DNA of 64,000 nucleotides, taken from contig JANLFN010000006.1 in NCBI GenBank assembly GCA_024655885.1, positions 62,001 through 126,000 of the forward strand. The letters run 5' to 3'. The notes beneath the pieces are model-generated. The model had not been told where the DNA came from and searched no databases. It saw only the letters and a program-made list of their open reading frames with translations. The stretch's first letter is position 1; every line of letters starts with the position of its first letter. A program made the translations under genes and the position numbers. The stretch comes from Eubacteriales bacterium (GTDB lineage Bacteria; Bacillota; Clostridia; Acetivibrionales; JANLFN01). Of this stretch, positions 18,695-49,012 are shown in pieces.

Positions 18695-18757
18695 AAAGAC
18701 AAGGGGACGGTTCTTCTGTCTGGCGAAGCCAGACAGAAGAACCGTCCCCTTGTCTTT
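18695..18757. repeat. perfect 30-bp inverted repeat with 3-nt loop; REP/RAYT-type GGGGACGGTTCT element
   Basis: aaagacaaggggacggttcttctgtctggc-gaa-gccagacagaagaaccgtccccttgtcttt. Confidence 0.95.
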
Positions 18758-18758
18758 T

Positions 18759-19616
18759 CTATACGGCTTTAACCTGGCTGAGCTGCCCGCACCCGCCTTT
18801 TATGTCACTGCCGAAATTAAAGAACCTGCCGCAGTCTATCCTCTTGGCCAGCCGGTGGTAAAACCTCATAAAATGTTCTTCCGGAACGGCCTGCAGCCCG
18901 GGTATGTGGTTGTCGTTGTACTGGGAAAGGATGAGCTTCACCGGCTTGTCTGCCAGCAACCTGCTCAGGCTGTCTATATCCTCATCCCGGTCATTAATGC
19001 CTTTAAATAGGGCATACCGCATTCTGACCCTTTCGTTAAAAGCCCGGGAATATTCCACAGCCGCTTCGATTATATCGGATATGTTGTAGATAGAGGTATA
19101 GGGGATGAGCGTTTTCCTTGTCGCATCGTTGGAAGCATGCAGGGATATGTTCAACCGGATGTGGCTCTCCCCATTTTTAAAATCCTCAATCAACCGGCGT
19201 ATTTGCGGGACTATGCCCACCGTCACGATCTCAAAATCCTTTATGCCCAGATCCCGGTAAGTTTTATCTATTGCCTGTTTTACATTTTCATAATTCAGCA
19301 TGGGTTCGCCCATACCCGCAAACACCACAGCTTCCAAGGGTCTAAATCCCGACTGCCTGCAATCGGCACTGCAGGCCTCTACCTGCTGGAAAATCTCATC
19401 TGCGGCAAGGTTCCTGATAAACCCCTGCCGTCCGGTAGCACAAAACCTACAGCCCACCCTGCAGCCCACCTGGGAAGATATGCAAACCGTACTGTTAAAA
19501 GTCAGTTTGAAACCATCGTCGTGCATGTACAGGGTTTCCACCGTGTGATTGTCCTCAAGCTTGAATAGGTACTTGACGGAACCATCTTTGCTGACCAGCC
19601 TTTTTAGAGTTTCCAT
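18759..19616 (-). CDS. RlmN/Cfr-like radical SAM protein lacking the N-terminal accessory domain
   Basis: CISSQVGCRVGCRFC (CX3CX2C plus upstream Cys) and C-terminal GGCGQL; start re-assigned to ATG 19616 (RBS aaggtgg), because the listed 19706 start lies inside the riboswitch attenuator leader. Confidence 0.88.
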   Translation of the reverse strand: METLKRLVSKDGSVKYLFKLEDNHTVETLYMHDDGFKLTFNSTVCISSQVGCRVGCRFCATGRQGFIRNLAADEIFQQVEACSADCRQSGFRPLEAVVFAGMGEPMLNYENVKQAIDKTYRDLGIKDFEIVTVGIVPQIRRLIEDFKNGESHIRLNISLHASNDATRKTLIPYTSIYNISDIIEAAVEYSRAFNERVRMRYALFKGINDRDEDIDSLSRLLADKPVKLILSQYNDNHIPGLQAVPEEHFMRFYHRLAKRIDCGRFFNFGSDIKGGCGQLSQVKAV

Positions 19617-19647
19617 ACGCAAAACCACCTTTTTATAAAATAATAAA

Positions 19648-19671
19648 CCCCTTAACTCTAAAGTTAAGGGG
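19648..19671 (-). terminator. intrinsic terminator/attenuator of the cobalamin riboswitch
   Basis: CCCCTTAACT-TTAG-AGTTAAGGGG followed by TTTATTATTTT, immediately upstream of the RBS. Confidence 0.85.
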
Positions 19672-19724
19672 TCAACAAACACACCTGCCTCTGTGGATAC
19701 TTCCAATATCCCCTATCACTCGTA

Positions 19725-19910
19725 GAGTTATTTTGAAAGCTACAGGCAGGTCTTCTGGCTCAAGCGTTATCATTCTCCCAACCTTCCCAGTATTCCCAGT
19801 GGCATCCAGGGAGAACTCTTCTCTTACAGCGGCGGGACCGCACAGGATTTGCACCTGTTTCCCTATTCTTTAACCTTTCGGTTAACACCTATAACCGTAG
19901 TATTCAATTG
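19725..19910 (-). ncRNA. cobalamin (AdoCbl) riboswitch
   Basis: minus strand: GGTGCAAATCCTGTGCGGTCCCGCCGCTGTAAG...GATGCCACTGGGAATACTGGGAAGG...GAGCCAGAAGACCTGCCTGTAGC (B12-box consensus). Confidence 0.95.
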
Positions 19911-20056
19911 TCGATGATATTATTTTACCACAAACACAGCTTTTTTCAAGAATAAAATTTTAACCGGCGCGTCTTTTCACTTTTACTGTTCTGGCAAATT
20001 ACTGCGCTTGACCCTCATCCCCTCACCCCGGAGCATCGGGGAAAGGGGCCCTTATT

Positions 20057-20791
20057 TCAGGTATTTAGAGGAGACAAGCCCACGTTGAGAATCCTGGATG
20101 CCCTCTCCACCTGCTCCGGACTTGGGGATTCAACCCCTTCCAAGGGGTACTCTACGCCCAGCTTATCCCACTTATATTTCCCCATGCTGTGGTATGGAAG
20201 CACCTCCACCTTCTCCACGCTTTTCAGCTGCCCGATGAACTCCGCCGCCTGGGCCAGGTCCCGTTCACCGTCGGTATATCCGGGCACAAGGACATAGCGG
20301 ATCCACACCGGAATATTTCTTTCGGATACATAAAGGGCGAATTTCTTAATCTTATGGTTGTCCACGCCTGTGATCACCCTGTGCTTTTCCGCATCTCCGT
20401 GCTTGATATCCAGCAAAACCAGGTCCGTAAACCCCAGCAGTTCCTCCACCCTTCCGATCTCCACAAAACCTGAAGTGTCAAGGGCCGTATGTACGCCCAT
20501 CTCTCTGCACTTTTTGAACACCTCGGTGACAAACTCCGCCTGAAGGGTAGGTTCCCCGCCGCTCACCGTGATGCCTCCGCCCGACAGCCGGATAAAATCC
20601 AGGTATTTTCCCATTTCGTTTAAAATATCCTCTACGGTATATTCCCTGCCTCCCCGGGCATCCCAGGTATCCCTGTTATGGCAGTACAGGCACCTTAAGG
20701 GGCAGCCCTGCATAAAGACCACAAACCTTATACCGGGTCCGTCCACGGTGCCAAAGGATTCAAAGGAATGGACCCTGCCGGTTACACTCAT
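20057..20791 (-). CDS. pflA: pyruvate formate-lyase activating enzyme
   Basis: radical SAM; GIRFVVFMQGCPLRCLYCHNRDTWD; directly downstream of pflB. Confidence 0.97.
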   Translation of the reverse strand: MSVTGRVHSFESFGTVDGPGIRFVVFMQGCPLRCLYCHNRDTWDARGGREYTVEDILNEMGKYLDFIRLSGGGITVSGGEPTLQAEFVTEVFKKCREMGVHTALDTSGFVEIGRVEELLGFTDLVLLDIKHGDAEKHRVITGVDNHKIKKFALYVSERNIPVWIRYVLVPGYTDGERDLAQAAEFIGQLKSVEKVEVLPYHSMGKYKWDKLGVEYPLEGVESPSPEQVERASRILNVGLSPLNT

Positions 20792-20814
20792 GCCAACACC
20801 TCATTTTGTACAGC

Positions 20815-23043
20815 TTATATGTGTTCGTGGATGGTCCTGTTGATCACATCCAGCTGCTGTTTTTTCGTAAGCCTGGTAAAATTGACGGCATAGCCGGATA
20901 CCCTTATGGTGAGCTGGGGGTACTTCTCAGGATGCTCCATGGCGTCCAAAAGGGTCTCTCTCTCGAAGACATTCACATTGATATGGTGTCCGCCCTGCTT
21001 GAAGTAACCGTCGAGAAGAGCCACAAGGTTGCTGATTCTTGTTTCGCCGTCCCGCCCCAGAGCCCTGGGAATAATTGAAAAGGTGTAGGAAATACCGTCC
21101 TGTGCATATTCATAGGGAAGCTTGGCCACAGAACTCAAAACGGCCAGGGCACCCTTGATATCTCTTCCGTGCATGGGGTTTGCCCCCGGAGCCAGGGGTT
21201 CTCCCGTTTTCCTCCCGTCCGGCGTATTCCCCGTCTTCTCACCGTATACCACGTTGGAGGTGATAGTCAACACCGAAAGGGTGGGCATGGAGTTCCTGTA
21301 AGTGCGCTGTTTTCGCAACTTGTCCATGAACAGCTTTATAACCCCGGTTGCAATGGAATCCACGCGGTCGTCGTTATTTCCGAACTTGGGATAGTCTCCT
21401 TCCACCTCGTAGTCTACCACAATGTTGTTTTCATTTCTTATGGGTTTGACCCGGGCATACCTTATAGCGCTCAATGAGTCCGCTACCACCGACAGTCCCG
21501 CGATGCCGCAGGCCATGGTCCTGAACACCTCCCTGTCGTGGAGTGCCATTTGCAGTCTTTCATAGTCATATTTGTCATGCATGGAGTGTATGATGTTCAG
21601 GGTGTTCATGTAAAGCCTGGCCACCCAGTCCAGCACCATATCAAACCTTTCCATCACATCGTCGTAATCCAGGTATTCGGTTTCTACAGCGGAAAACCGC
21701 GGTGCCACCTGGATACCCGTCATCTCATCCCTGCCGCCGTTGATGGCATAAAGCAGCGCTTTGGCAAGGTTGCACCTGGCGCCGAAAAACTGCATCTGTT
21801 TTCCAAGTCTCATGGCGGATACGCAGCAGGCAATTCCATAGTCGTCGCCCCAGTGGTATCTCATGATGTCGTCGTTCTCGTACTGTATGGAACTTGTGTG
21901 AATGGACACCCTGGCGCAAAACCTTTTAAAGGCGGAGGGAAGGCGGACAGACCACAAAACGGTCAAATTGGGTTCAGGCGAAGGTCCCAGGTTGAACAGC
22001 GTATTAAGTATCCTGAAAGAAGATTTGGTCACCAGGGTCCTTCCGTCCAGGCTCATTCCCCCGATGCTCTCGGTCACCCATGTAGGGTCCCCGCTGAAGA
22101 GCTTCTCATATTCGGGCGTTCTTAAAAACCGGACCATTCTCAGCTTGATGACAAACTGGTCGATTAATTCCTGCACCTCTTCCTCGGTGATTTTTCCTTC
22201 CTTTAAATCCCTCTCAAAGTATATGTCCAGGAAAGTGGAGGTTCTTCCCAGGCTCATGGCCGCCCCGTTTTGCTCTTTTATGGCGCCGAGGTATGCAAAG
22301 TACAGCCACTGCACGGCTTCCCTGGAATCCCTTGCAGGCTTTGATATATCAAAGCCGTAGCTTTCCGCCATTTTTTTCAGCAGCTCCAGGGCGTTTATCT
22401 GTTCACGGATTTCTTCCCTGTTGCGGATGGTTTCCGCGTCCATGTAGTCAAATTCCAGGTTTACCATCTCATACTGCTTTTCGGCAATCAGCCGGTCAAC
22501 CCCATAGAGGGGCACTCTCCTGTAGTCCCCTATGATCCTGCCCCTGCCGTATGCGTCGGGGAGCCCTGTAATGATACCCGCTTTTTTAGCCCTCCGCATT
22601 TCTTCGGTATAGACGTCATAAACCCCCTGGTTGTGTGTTTTTCTGAACTGTGTAAATATTTCAACCACATCCGGGTCCACTTGCTTTCCATAGGACTCAC
22701 ACCCTTTTACCACCATTCTTATCCCGCCGAAAGGCATGATGGCCCGCTTCAGGGGTTCATCCGTCTGAAGCCCCACCACCTTTTCCAAGTTTTTGTCAAT
22801 ATAGCCCGGCTTATGGGAAACGATAGTGGAAATGGTATGGGTGTCGATATCCAGTACCCCGCCGTTTTCCCTCTCCTTTCCCAGCAGCCAGGTCACTTTG
22901 TCCCACAGCTTGCGCGTGGTTTCCGAAGCTCCGCTTAAAAAGCCTTCATCTCCTTCATAGGGCGTGTAATTCAGTTGAATGAAGTTCCTCACGTCAATCT
23001 CCGAACACCAGTTGCCCTTCACAAAACCGTCCCATGCTTCCAT
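20815..23043 (-). CDS. pflB: formate C-acetyltransferase (pyruvate formate-lyase)
   Basis: glycyl radical motif RVSGYAVNF near the C-terminus; [12 protein letters not shown] start at 23043 with RBS GAGGTG. Confidence 0.97.
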
Positions 23044-23127
23044 ACAGCAACACCTCAAATATTTAAGTATTACTATAAATTTGCCCCGATATGGGACAAA
23101 TTATCCATGGGACCGGAGAATGTCAAA

Positions 23128-37185: not shown

Positions 37186-38211
37186 TCACGGCTGTTTCTT
37201 GACGGTATCGGTCATCGCCTTGATATTTTCCAGGGAGGATGTGGTGCTGAGCCCGCAGGCGGGAGCAATGATATCGATTCCATCCCGTAAAAGCCTCTCG
37301 GTCTGGGCCGACACCTTTTGGGGATCTCCAAATTCCAGAAGGAAAGTACTCAAATTGCCCATGGTGGTGAGAAAGGGGAACTCCTCCTTTAGCAAACGCA
37401 GGTTTACCGGTGCATCGGTGCTTATGGCATCCGATTTGATTTTGGGGATCAGGTGCTTCACCGCATTCATATTCCCGCATATGTGGACTATAACAGGGGA
37501 ATTTAAGGAATGGATACCGTCAACAAGTTTGTTTAAATACCTTACGGCATATTCTTCGAACATTTTGGGTCCCAGGATCTCGCCTGTAGCTGTCGGGTCT
37601 CCTATGGATATCACATCTGCGCCGTTATCCAGCATAAGCTTGGCGTACTCGATAAGAAGATCCGTCACATAATCCACCACCCGGTGTGCATTCCTCCCAT
37701 CCTTTCTGAGCTCCTTCAGGAAACGCATGGGGTCGACGATGGAGGCGGCAGTGCTTATAGGCCCCGTCAGGCTCCCTATAAGGGGTACGTCGGGGAACCG
37801 CTTTGACAGCCGATAGCCCGCCTGTATAACCGTTTCAATCCGTCCCGTTTTTAAAATACTTGCAATTTCTTTATAATCAACCTGGGCAACGCTAGGAAAT
37901 ACCTCTTTTTGAATTTTAGGTTCACAGGACAGCGTCCCGAAATTTATTTCACTCCCCAGCACCTCTGCTTCCACTGTCATGCAAAAAGGTATTCCGAAAT
38001 TTTCAAATCCCGTATACTCATGTACATCGCCGGACAGCTCAGCCATGAGCTCTTCATCGTGATGGGCCTCAGGAAGGGTGTGTCCGGTTCGGTTCATAAC
38101 ATCCACCACCGCAGCGTTCATCATGCCGCCAGGACAGATGACAGGCGGCCGGTCCACCTTTTCCCTGTTTAAAACCCGGAGCAGCCTTTCTTTCTCGCTC
38201 AATTCGCTCAC
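37186..38211 (-). CDS. uroporphyrinogen decarboxylase-fold methyltransferase (MtaA/CmuA/MtsA-like)
   Basis: ERLLRVLNREKVDRPPVICPGGMMN; SLTGPISTAASIVD; VIVHICGN Zn-binding motif with C-terminal IIAPACGLS. Confidence 0.92.
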   Translation of the reverse strand: MSELSEKERLLRVLNREKVDRPPVICPGGMMNAAVVDVMNRTGHTLPEAHHDEELMAELSGDVHEYTGFENFGIPFCMTVEAEVLGSEINFGTLSCEPKIQKEVFPSVAQVDYKEIASILKTGRIETVIQAGYRLSKRFPDVPLIGSLTGPISTAASIVDPMRFLKELRKDGRNAHRVVDYVTDLLIEYAKLMLDNGADVISIGDPTATGEILGPKMFEEYAVRYLNKLVDGIHSLNSPVIVHICGNMNAVKHLIPKIKSDAISTDAPVNLRLLKEEFPFLTTMGNLSTFLLEFGDPQKVSAQTERLLRDGIDIIAPACGLSTTSSLENIKAMTDTVKKQP

Positions 38212-38388
38212 AGCAGCACCTCCTTTTTCCGCCTTTCAGGGCAGCCTGACCCTTAGGCAGTGTCAGGCATTGCCTTGTTATTTTTCAAAAGCAGATTCCG
38301 TCCGTTTCCGTACGCCCTCAGAATTTTCCGGTGGAAGGCCTGCAGCTCCCTCCACACCCCCTCGGGCGCCGTCCCCCTGTCCCCGGCA

Positions 38389-39045
38389 TCAGGGCCTGCT
38401 TCCCACCAGCCTCCTGGCAAGCCTCACAGCCTCGGCAGCGTTGACCGAATAGCCGTCCGCGCCGATTTTATCCGCAAAGCTCTGGGATATGGGGCCTCCC
38501 CCCACCATAACCTTGAACTGTCCCCGGATGCCTTCCCTTTCCAGCAGGCCGATCACCTGGGCCATTTCACCCATTGTCGTGGTCATAAGGGTTGAAAGGG
38601 CGATGATATGTGCCCGCACGGCTTTGGCCTTCTCCACGAAATCCCCCGGCGGGACATCCCTTCCCAGGTCAACCACCTCGAAGCCCGAAGCCTCCAGCAT
38701 GATCTTTACCAGGTTTTTGCCTATATCATGGGTGTCTCCTTCCACAACTCCCAGGACAACCCTGTGCTTCTCTCCCTGCTCTTCTCTCCGGATGTGGGGC
38801 TTTAATACGTCAAGCCCCGCATACATGGCATCCGAACACATTAAAAGCTCAGGGATGAAATATTCCTCTTCCTCAAAAAGCTTTCCCGCCCTGTCCATTC
38901 CATCTGCAAGGCCCCTATCTATAGCCTCATAGGCATCATGCCCCTCGGCTACCACCTCTTCCGCGACCCTGACGGTCTCCTCTTCCTCCATCTGGACCAC
39001 GGCATCTGAAAGCTTTTTATACAGTTCTTCCTTTCCTTTTGGCAT
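38389..39045 (-). CDS. methyltransferase cognate corrinoid protein (B12-binding)
   Basis: N-terminal B12-binding-2 helical domain; GVVEGDTHDIGKNLVKIMLEASGFEVVDLGRDVPP with DxHxxG motif. Confidence 0.96.
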   Translation of the reverse strand: MPKGKEELYKKLSDAVVQMEEEETVRVAEEVVAEGHDAYEAIDRGLADGMDRAGKLFEEEEYFIPELLMCSDAMYAGLDVLKPHIRREEQGEKHRVVLGVVEGDTHDIGKNLVKIMLEASGFEVVDLGRDVPPGDFVEKAKAVRAHIIALSTLMTTTMGEMAQVIGLLEREGIRGQFKVMVGGGPISQSFADKIGADGYSVNAAEAVRLARRLVGSRP

Positions 39046-39062: not shown

Positions 39063-39883
39063 GGGGACGGTTCTCATTGTCGCACTATGCCCTAAATATG
39101 ATATCTTTACTAATTCCTATGGCCTTTGACAACTGGCGGACTGAAGCCTTCACAGACTTCTTTATCTCTCTCAATATCTGATCCCTTAACCCTTTATCCT
39201 CAATACCTTTTAGACTTTCCAGACTTTGTCCGTATTTATCCAATACTTGATTCACTCTGCTTTCCAGATCGATTGAGTGTTCCGCTTTTACCGCCGGTTT
39301 TGCTTGACCGGTGGTTTCTTCACAATCAATAAATCCATCTTCCACCGGCACCTTCGTAAATTCCTTTAATTTTTCAACTGCTCGCTCGTATTTGTAACTG
39401 CTCCATTCATATGCCTCTGCTCTTGGCACCATAGCCGCTTTTACAGGATTATTGTGAATATACCTTGCTGCTGCAAGTATATATGCGTCTTCCTCCAATA
39501 CCTCACTGCAGTACCTGTCCTGGAATAAGTGGCCAATCCTGTGGTATTTTTTATTGAAATAGTATACATAGCTAATGCCGATTCTTTTCATGGACCGCTG
39601 TATGCTGTCTTTTCCTTCACGGATCAATATATGTACATGATTACTCATCAGGCAGTATGCCAATATGTCAAAATTTCCGTCCTCCTTCATCCTTTCCATG
39701 GTGTCCAAGAACCGTTTCCTGTCGTCGTCCAGAAATATTTCTTTTCTCTCATTGCCTCGCAGCATCACGTGATAAATCCTGCTTGAGCTTAACTTTCTCG
39801 GGCATCTTGGCATCTTCATCACCTGAAGTGTTTTTCCTTATTATACCATGAAAACAAAAATGCGACAAGATAGAACCGTCCCC
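39063..39883. mobile_element. RAYT (REP-associated Y1/HUH transposase) element with GGGGACGGTTCT terminal inverted repeats
   Basis: left end GGGGACGGTTCTCATTGTCGCA; right end TGCGACAAGATAGAACCGTCCCC. Confidence 0.9.
39085..39822 (-). CDS. REP-associated tyrosine transposase (Y1_Tnp, TnpA-REP)
   Basis: RIYHVMLRGNERKEIFLDDDRKRFL; CLMSNHVHILI (HUH motif); IGHLFQDRYCSEVLEEDAYILAAARYIHNNPV. Confidence 0.96.
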   Translation of the reverse strand: MMKMPRCPRKLSSSRIYHVMLRGNERKEIFLDDDRKRFLDTMERMKEDGNFDILAYCLMSNHVHILIREGKDSIQRSMKRIGISYVYYFNKKYHRIGHLFQDRYCSEVLEEDAYILAAARYIHNNPVKAAMVPRAEAYEWSSYKYERAVEKLKEFTKVPVEDGFIDCEETTGQAKPAVKAEHSIDLESRVNQVLDKYGQSLESLKGIEDKGLRDQILREIKKSVKASVRQLSKAIGISKDIIFRA

Positions 39884-44996: not shown

Positions 44997-45535
44997 GGGG
45001 GACGGTTCTCATTGTCGCATTACGCCCTAAATATGATATCTTTACTAATTCCTATGGCCCTTGACAACTGGCGGACTGAAGCCTTCACAGACTCCTTTAT
45101 CTCTCTCAAAATCTGATCCCTTAACCCTTTATCCTCAATACCTTTTGACTTTCCAGACTTTGTCCGTATTTATCCAATACCTGATTCACTCTGCTTTCCA
45201 GATCGATTGCGTTTTCCGCTTTTACCGCCGGTTTTGCTTGACCGGTGGTTTCTTCACAATCAATAAAGCCATCTTCCGCCGGCACCTTCGTAAATTCCTT
45301 TAATTTTTCAACTGCTCGCTCTCGCTTTTCATCCTCTTTCATCCTTTCCATGGTGTCCAAGAACCGTTTCCTGTCGTCGTCCAGAAATATTTCTTTTCTC
45401 TCGTTGCCTCGCAGCATTACGTGATAAATCCTGCTTGAGCTTAACTTTCTCGGGCATCTTGGCATCCTCATCACCTGAAGTGTTTTTCCTTATCATACCA
45501 TGAAAACAAAAATGCGACAAGATAGAACCGTCCCC
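44997..45535. mobile_element. internally deleted, non-autonomous RAYT element
   Basis: same ends as 39063-39883 (GGGGACGGTTCTCATTGTCGCA ... TGCGACAAGATAGAACCGTCCCC); ORF 45121-45474 lacks the HUH/Tyr region and is frameshifted near its end. Confidence 0.92.
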
Positions 45536-47080: not shown

Positions 47081-47273
47081 AAAATCACCTGTATAGATTA
47101 TATTATATTTTGAGGAATTATTCATCCTCAATATGGGTATACATTCATGCAGCATTAAGCACAAATTCTTATATATAAATTTCTTGCCCTCTGCACAATG
47201 AAATCGGCATGTCTGTGTGATAGTCTAAAAGCACAGGAATAATTACTTTTTGCTAAATGGAGGGGGTATCAAA

Positions 47274-47900
47274 ATGAGTAAAAATCTTATTAATGCAATG
47301 GCTGACCTCAACGAAGATGTGGTGCTTGAAGAAGTAAAAGCATTGAAGGCCCAGAATGTGCCTGCTTTGGACATCATAGCTTCCCTGCAGGAAGGTATGA
47401 GCATTGTAGGCAAAAGATTCGAGGAAAAGGAATATTTCCTTTCGGAGCTTATAATGTCCGCAGAAATATTCAATGAGGCTTCTAAGCTTATAGGCGGAGC
47501 TGCAGATGGCGAAGCCGCTTCCAGGTATGGAACTTTTGTCATGGGAACCATTTATGACGATATCCATGATATTGGAAAAAACATTGTTACTACAGTCATG
47601 GGCAGCAACGGCTTTAATGTAATCGATTTGGGTGTTGATGTTCCTACAGAAAAGTATATCGACGCAATAAAGGAGTACAAACCCAAGGTGATAGGCATTT
47701 CCTGCCTGCTCACTACCGCTTTCGATAACATTAAGGAATGTATACAGACCATAGAGAAAGAAGGTCTGCGTAAGGACCTAAAAATTCTTATCGGCGGAGG
47801 CCCTGTTGACGAAGCTACTTGCAGGTATGTAGGCGCTGACCATGTCTGTAAGAACGCCCAGGAAACAGTTGAATATTCAAAAAAATATATGGGGGTGTAA
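47274..47900 (+). CDS. methyltransferase cognate corrinoid protein (B12-binding)
   Basis: SKNLINAMADLNEDVVLEEVKALKAQNVPALDIIASLQEGMSIVGKRFEEKEYFLSELIMSAEIF; GTIYDDIHDIGKNIVTTVMGSNGFNVIDLGVDVP. Confidence 0.96.
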   Translation: MSKNLINAMADLNEDVVLEEVKALKAQNVPALDIIASLQEGMSIVGKRFEEKEYFLSELIMSAEIFNEASKLIGGAADGEAASRYGTFVMGTIYDDIHDIGKNIVTTVMGSNGFNVIDLGVDVPTEKYIDAIKEYKPKVIGISCLLTTAFDNIKECIQTIEKEGLRKDLKILIGGGPVDEATCRYVGADHVCKNAQETVEYSKKYMGV

Positions 47901-47905
47901 TAAAT

Positions 47906-49012
47906 ATGCCAAATCAGGAACTATTTAATACACGTGTTAACAGGATAATGACTGCGGCAACTCTGGGAAAACCGGATCAGATTCCAGTTGTTCTTACCGC
48001 AGATGCTTTTTGCGCAAAGCACATGGGAGTAAAACTGGCCGACTTTATAAAAGACTACAATTTTGGAGCTGAAATAATGCTGAAGTCCTTTCTGGACCTC
48101 GGCGGAGTAGACGGAGTGCAGTGTCTTGTTCCTGCGGCAATGGAAATAAACAATTCCTGGCTGTCGAGGTACAAGCTTCCCGGAAGGGAGCTTGGAGATG
48201 ACGAGCTATGGCAGGTTAACGAGCTTGAGGTCATGCATCCTGAAGATTATGATGACGTAATAAAAAAAGGCTATAACCGGTTCTGCAATGACATAGTGAT
48301 ACAAAGGTTGGGCGGAACAGGAGCGGAAATGGAGCCTATGCTATCCGCCGCACCTGCAGCGGCCCAAAATGCTATTGAGGCAGGAATAGTTCCATTTGTA
48401 GGTGGTGTATCCACTATACCCTATGAAACCTTCTGCGGCGGCCGCACTATGGCTAAATTCATGCAGGACCTATTTAAAATTCCCGACAAGGTGCAGGAAG
48501 CCATGGATGCATCAATGCCGGATATCATCGGAGATGCTAAAGGAATGGTCGCCATGGCCAAGCCGTTGTCGGTATGGGTCGGAGGATGGCGTACGGCAAG
48601 CCAGTTCCTGTCACGCAAGCTGTGGGAGCGTTTTGTATGGCCTTATTTTAAAATGTTGACCGAGGCGTTTATAGATGAAGGCGTAATACCCACTCTGCAC
48701 CTTGATGCGGATTGGGAGCGCGATCTCAATTACTTGCTTGAACTCCCCAAGGGAAAATTTATTTTTTCTCCTGACGGAGCTACTGATATGTACAAGGCAA
48801 AGGAAATCCTGGACGGGCACGCCTGTTTCATGGGCGATGTACCCCCTGCCATGCTTGCACTAGGTACTGTAGATGGCGTATATAACTACAGCAGAAAGCT
48901 CATCAGTGATTTCGGCCCATCAGGATATATACTTTCACAGGGCTGCTGCATACCGCCCAATGCAAAGGTGGAGAATGTAAAAGCTATGATCGCTGCTGCA
49001 ACAGGGAAATAA
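47906..49012 (+). CDS. uroporphyrinogen decarboxylase-fold corrinoid methyltransferase
   Basis: NRIMTAATLGKPDQIPVVLTADAF; LHLDADWERD and GCCIPPNAKVENVKAMI (UroD/MtaA-type ligands). Confidence 0.92.
   Translation: MPNQELFNTRVNRIMTAATLGKPDQIPVVLTADAFCAKHMGVKLADFIKDYNFGAEIMLKSFLDLGGVDGVQCLVPAAMEINNSWLSRYKLPGRELGDDELWQVNELEVMHPEDYDDVIKKGYNRFCNDIVIQRLGGTGAEMEPMLSAAPAAAQNAIEAGIVPFVGGVSTIPYETFCGGRTMAKFMQDLFKIPDKVQEAMDASMPDIIGDAKGMVAMAKPLSVWVGGWRTASQFLSRKLWERFVWPYFKMLTEAFIDEGVIPTLHLDADWERDLNYLLELPKGKFIFSPDGATDMYKAKEILDGHACFMGDVPPAMLALGTVDGVYNYSRKLISDFGPSGYILSQGCCIPPNAKVENVKAMIAAATGK

Follow-up and report, generated by a model that had tools for sequence, protein, structure and literature searches.

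Why should a gene of the RlmN/Cfr type of radical SAM enzymes stand behind a cobalamin riboswitch? The question is raised by a minus-strand locus in a 64-kb stretch of DNA from a Eubacteriales bacterium, in the following called the window. A sequence-only reading had described here a B12 riboswitch followed by an attenuator hairpin, a ribosome-binding site and an ORF that keeps the catalytic cysteines of RlmN and Cfr while the accessory N-terminal domain of RlmN is absent. It had suggested that the encoded protein either replaces a B12-dependent function or acts on a corrinoid-related substrate. Our analyses bore out the described architecture and point to a role of the protein in the synthesis of a cobamide lower ligand.

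The riboswitch unit

On the minus strand, the locus has the order promoter-like site, riboswitch, terminator hairpin, RBS and ORF (Table 1). The covariance-model match to the cobalamin riboswitch family covers all 189 positions of the RF00174 model at a score far above the gathering score of 31.5 bits, and it is the sole Rfam match in the entire window. From its sequence, the hairpin is predicted to be the transcriptional OFF switch of the riboswitch. The source genome contains 8 cobalamin riboswitches in 3.44 Mb, and a chance adjacency to the ORF is hence negligible. A longer in-frame ORF starting with TTG at 19706 was rejected, because its reading frame would cross the terminator. The inverted repeat that immediately follows the ORF is likely a terminator as well; no second occurrence of its arm was seen in the window. 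Directly upstream of the riboswitch unit and on the same strand lies a gene pair for a pyruvate-formate-lyase-like glycyl radical enzyme and an activating radical SAM enzyme, with the promoter-like site and the riboswitch located in between.

Table 1. Features of the locus and further features of the window
Feature	Position	Strand	Basis or remark
Cobalamin riboswitch aptamer (RF00174)	19728..19907	-	116.5 bits, E 1.6e-28, complete model
Sigma-70-like promoter, upstream of riboswitch	19922..19949	-	TTGAAA, 16 nt, TG-TAAAAT; consensus match only, such matches near chance number
Intrinsic terminator hairpin, expression platform	19646..19673	-	12-bp stem and U-rich tail
RBS-like AGGTGG	19625..19630	-	sequence
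RlmN/Cfr-like radical SAM protein, predicted adenine C2-methyl synthase	18759..19616	-	285 aa and stop; profiles, alignment, tree, structure model
Inverted repeat right after ORF	18703..18749	.	near-perfect, stem at least 20 bp
Glycyl radical enzyme and activating radical SAM enzyme	20057..23058	-	
Corrinoid (B12-binding) protein	37186..39045	-	beside URO-D-type methyltransferase
Corrinoid (B12-binding) protein	47250..49012	+	beside URO-D-type methyltransferase
IS200-like (Y1) transposase	39085..39822	-	
Shortened near-copy of transposase start	45121..45474	-	

An RlmN-like protein without N-terminal domain

The ORF contains all five catalytic cysteines of RlmN and Cfr, i.e., the CX3CX2C cluster (C52/C56/C59) and the catalytic pair C45 and C276, at the positions of C112/C116/C119, C105 and C338 in Cfr. 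With 207.4 bits in the TIGR00048 profile of RlmN, it stays under the curated cut-off of 290, and scores with the Cfr profiles lie far under their cut-offs (135.6 vs 550 bits for TIGR04432, 146.8 vs 530 bits for NF000424). The TIGR00048 match begins only at model position 73 of 355, from which it follows that the N-terminal domain is absent. Similarly, solved RlmN chains align with the protein only from their residue 68–89 onward. RlmN was also the best PDB match of a structure model with a pLDDT of 87.5, in which the C-terminal tail from residue 274, C276 included, is not confident; TM-scores were 0.81–0.88 by query and only 0.67–0.74 by target. A second, full-length rlmN, the existence of which the sequence-only reading had left to be checked, is present in the source genome and codes for 346 aa, with an rsmB- and a PP2C-type gene on either side (G000:C55:97671-98468).

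A separate clade with frequent cobalamin riboswitches

We found at least 16 further loci of this RlmN-like clade, at least 17 together with the locus in the window. Three relatives within the order showed 59, 58, and 56% identity and one within the class 63%. Family or order searches yielded seven relatives, and at least five came from named genomes: Clostridium sp. CX1 and BSD9I1, one Negativicutes MAG, and two further MAGs that carry the labels Clostridiales and Papillibacter. With the query genomes counted, the gene is rare: it occurred in 4/60 relatives, in 2/388 genomes of a class sample and in 1/398 of a phylum sample, in 4/251 and 4/210 genomes of two families, and in 4/4 genomes of a small Negativicutes order. 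No relatives were found on viral contigs, and on plasmids there were only rlmN/cfr-type matches, with a best identity of 36% among the matches listed.

An alignment of 15 members has a mean column identity of 65%. Each member starts at the beta extension, without the N-terminal HhH2 RNA-binding domain, and the catalytic cysteines are invariant. In a maximum-likelihood tree, the bootstrap of which is not fully settled, the 15 members cluster together at 100/100 support and are separated from Cfr and the 71 RlmN rows. Cfr itself is placed on a long branch among the RlmN rows, outside the RlmN-like clade.

A cobalamin riboswitch is located directly upstream of the gene at 12 of the 17 member loci (that of the window, L004, L006, L008, L009, L012, L131, L132, L134, L135, L139 and L140), and each of these 12 has a strong hairpin with a U-run after the riboswitch and before the start codon. 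None was found at L003, L005, L086, L007 and L138; a weak PreQ1 match near L086 was under the cut-off and was taken as chance. By comparison, no cobalamin riboswitch was found at 11 rlmN control loci (about 141 kb scanned). Shared ancestry lowers the number of independent riboswitch associations, but the proteins share only about 47–62% identity with that of the window. None of the three outcomes named beforehand as refuting the sequence-only reading, namely no covariance match, a sole rlmN together with A2503 methylation by such orthologues, or no riboswitch association, occurred, and the separate clade without N-terminal domain for which it had suggested a test was recovered.

A LOG protein as partner

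A LOG protein (TIGR00730) is encoded by the gene that follows, on the same strand, at L009, L012, L131 and L132, all from one family, and at each of the four Negativicutes loci. The genomes with this arrangement represent two lineages (G813, G814, G981, G912; G812, G1272-G1274), and in both the partner has the PGGxGTxxE motif and the family score. LOG overlaps the end of the radical SAM gene in L009 and in L148, a longer stretch of L132, and the linked LOG was the only one of its genome in 6/6 such genomes searched. LOG proteins hydrolyze AMP-type nucleotides to the free base, for example adenine from AMP (PMC4979012). In the source genome, LOG is found unlinked on the same contig, about 37 kb from the ORF; it is 67% identical to the LOG of L007 and belongs to the same subfamily. 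LOG of the partner subfamily occurs unlinked too. In four Clostridium genomes and in G029 no LOG was found. LOG is therefore not required everywhere, and it is here that the argument based on this partner is weakest. Some LOG proteins are extended at the C-terminus by a further domain of some 140 aa (L009:6876-7844, L012:1384-2358, L148:8975-9931), for which L009 gave a weak CutA-like match.

Cobamide metabolism in member genomes

CobT was present in 10/10 member genomes tested vs 7/14 unrelated control genomes; G811 and G812 each have a cobalamin riboswitch immediately ahead of a CobT-family gene. In the source genome, a cbi operon that includes CbiD and cobalt-transport-type genes is situated near riboswitches. 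A BzaA/B/F-type paralogue was not found in the fifteen member genomes tested, nor was a ThiC/Bza-family protein in the source genome. Other member genomes have at most one full-length ThiC-family copy, and eight of these copies that were tested score as ThiC and under the BzaB cut-off. Judged by this ThiC/Bza-family (BzaA/B/F-type) marker, the anaerobic benzimidazole route is not evident, and one would thus most simply expect purine-type ligands. Phenolic ligands may be used in addition by the Negativicutes MAG G812. It contains three CobT-family genes (C132:14905-16958 and C48:14306-15283), two of them adjacent in an ArsAB-like arrangement, riboswitches directly before C132:14905 and C48:14306, and 13 cobalamin riboswitches in total.

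The sequence-only reading had also drawn attention to two corrinoid proteins in the window. These lie 19–30 kb from the ORF in unrelated methyltransferase loci, with no riboswitch nearby in the Rfam search of the window, and a link to the ORF did not emerge. The window further contains an IS200-like transposase, the start of which recurs as a shortened near-copy.

Proposed supply of 2-methyladenine for factor A

RlmN chemistry yields 2-methyladenine, the base that serves as lower ligand in the cobamide factor A. C. cochlearium is a known producer of factor A; to our knowledge, no member genome comes from a proven producer, and we know of no gene for the 2-methyladenine lower-ligand step. Among the papers searched, none connected 2-methyladenine with a gene for its synthesis, and none brought a cobalamin riboswitch together with rlmN. 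A cobamide-repressed RlmN relative that has no RNA-binding domain and is found, in two lineages, beside a base-releasing enzyme is best explained as a supply of 2-methyladenine. We hence propose that the ORF encodes a dedicated adenine C2-methyl synthase that provides 2-methyladenine for 2-methyladeninylcobamide (factor A) and is switched off by cobamide. As we infer both product and substrate, we hold this proposal with a confidence only a little better than even.

In such a reaction, C276 would be methylated with SAM, as in RlmN, and a 5'-deoxyadenosyl radical would then generate a methylene radical on C276. This radical would add to C2 of adenine, C2 rather than C8 being assumed from RlmN, and the product would be freed with the help of C45. 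Rather than RNA, the substrate would be a small molecule containing adenine, with AMP and adenine itself as the likeliest candidates. The base would be freed by LOG or, in members that lack it, by a different nucleosidase, and AMP may be methylated before this release, or adenine after it. CobT would then attach 2-methyladenine as the lower ligand of factor A, whereas plentiful cobamide would cause the riboswitch to terminate transcription.

When cobinamide is provided, E. coli produces both factor A and pseudo-B12, using its own internal bases (PMC9426567); its lower-ligand attachment thus accepts 2-methyladenine. This 2-methyladenine presumably results from the turnover of RlmN-modified RNA. 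Since E. coli makes it without a gene of the clade, the synthesis does not, strictly speaking, depend on a dedicated enzyme.

Factor A could also arise by methylation of the adenine in alpha-adenosine phosphate, which CobT produces, or in the finished pseudocobalamin, with LOG only supplying adenine from AMP. This would account for the members without LOG and for the riboswitch control, and both the presence of CobT in 10/10 genomes tested and the changed RNA backbone contacts described below agree with it, although the residues do not separate this substrate from AMP. RlmN pockets, however, recognize beta-adenosine nucleotides, and we regard this route as rather unlikely.

If methylation of free AMP or adenine is the true activity, an RNA-modifying radical enzyme would have been converted to a small-molecule role. 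The wider claim is evenly balanced in our view: the ORF may encode the first enzyme dedicated to making a purine lower ligand of cobamides, an RlmN descendant that has come off RNA to form the 2-methyladenine of factor A while LOG releases the base, and may serve as a genomic marker for producers of 2-methyladeninylcobamide. This cobamide was reported as the most abundant one in human stool (PMC6461909). Genome-based prediction has not reached the producers of purinyl cobamides: of the predicted cobamide producers, only 58% could be assigned a lower ligand, and purinyl cobamides may be what the others make (PMC6461909). A riboswitch-controlled candidate gene would help to fill this gap.

Residue changes at the RNA contacts

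In Cfr, RNA is contacted by S187 at the phosphate of U2504, by R327 at the ribose and by N288 at the phosphate of A2503 (PMC13001441). All three positions differ in all clade members: S187, a Thr in 92% of RlmN, is replaced by an invariant Glu129 (E129), R327, an Arg in 100% of RlmN, by Phe265 (F265), and N288, an Asn in 94% of RlmN, by Ile/Val229. M31 (Cfr M95) and the catalytic cysteines are kept across the clade. N156, R198, R200 and S231 are clade-specific invariant residues, and R154 is invariant too; the phosphate of a nucleotide would be a fitting ligand for the new arginines. A Glu at an RNA-phosphate-binding position argues against a polymer substrate. Because profile score, N-terminal domain and RNA contacts all depart from RlmN, we do not class the protein as RlmN, yet its sequence predicts RlmN-like chemistry.

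A protein that still methylates RNA when B12 is scarce, be it tRNA, rRNA or another kind, would fit the RlmN/Cfr fold and the full catalytic apparatus, and RNA of two kinds is modified by RlmN itself. With these fixed contact changes, the HhH2 domain missing from every member and a full-length RlmN in the genome, this is improbable, and it would leave the LOG linkage and the cobamide control unexplained. Another small-molecule methylation tied to corrinoid metabolism, for example to C8-methyladenine or another purine, we consider very improbable, as an 8-methyladenine cobamide is absent from the list of known lower ligands (PMC8123684). In its favor, the five invariant residues N156, R198, R200, S231 and R154 show a remodelled pocket. 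Least credible is that the protein substitutes, independently of B12, for a B12-dependent enzyme, as MetE does for MetH; such substitutes share the OFF-type riboswitch logic, but CobT occurs in the genomes tested, the source genome has cobamide synthesis genes, the partner LOG works on AMP-type nucleotides, and we know of no B12-dependent adenine-methylating enzyme or other isofunctional counterpart. Of the two suggestions in the sequence-only reading, we thus favor the corrinoid-related substrate, here sharpened to 2-methyladenine lower-ligand synthesis; the replacement of a B12-dependent function found no support.

Comparison with known systems

The riboswitch is a full member of the RF00174 class with a terminator-type expression platform and is unusual only in the gene it controls. 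With the bza pathway (BzaA-F), the ORF would share the role of making a cobamide lower ligand, and bza operons are under cobalamin riboswitches as well; chemistry and ligand class differ, with a purine for the ORF vs a benzimidazole for bza. The partner gene has motif and family score in common with the LOG phosphoribohydrolases of TIGR00730, and its substrate is a predicted one. Cfr, the 23S rRNA A2503 C8-methyl synthase, has the same fold and mechanism type, but it contains the N-terminal domain, belongs to another clade and shares only 24% identity with the protein in a structural alignment. RlmN (TIGR00048), which is the C2-methyl synthase for 23S rRNA A2503 and tRNA A37, is closest, with about 33% identity, the radical SAM barrel, the five catalytic cysteines, the GMGEP motif and, if our prediction holds, C2-methyladenine as product. 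Unlike RlmN, the protein lacks the N-terminal RNA-binding domain, has altered RNA-backbone contacts, scores under the curated cut-off, falls in a separate clade and stands under a cobalamin riboswitch.
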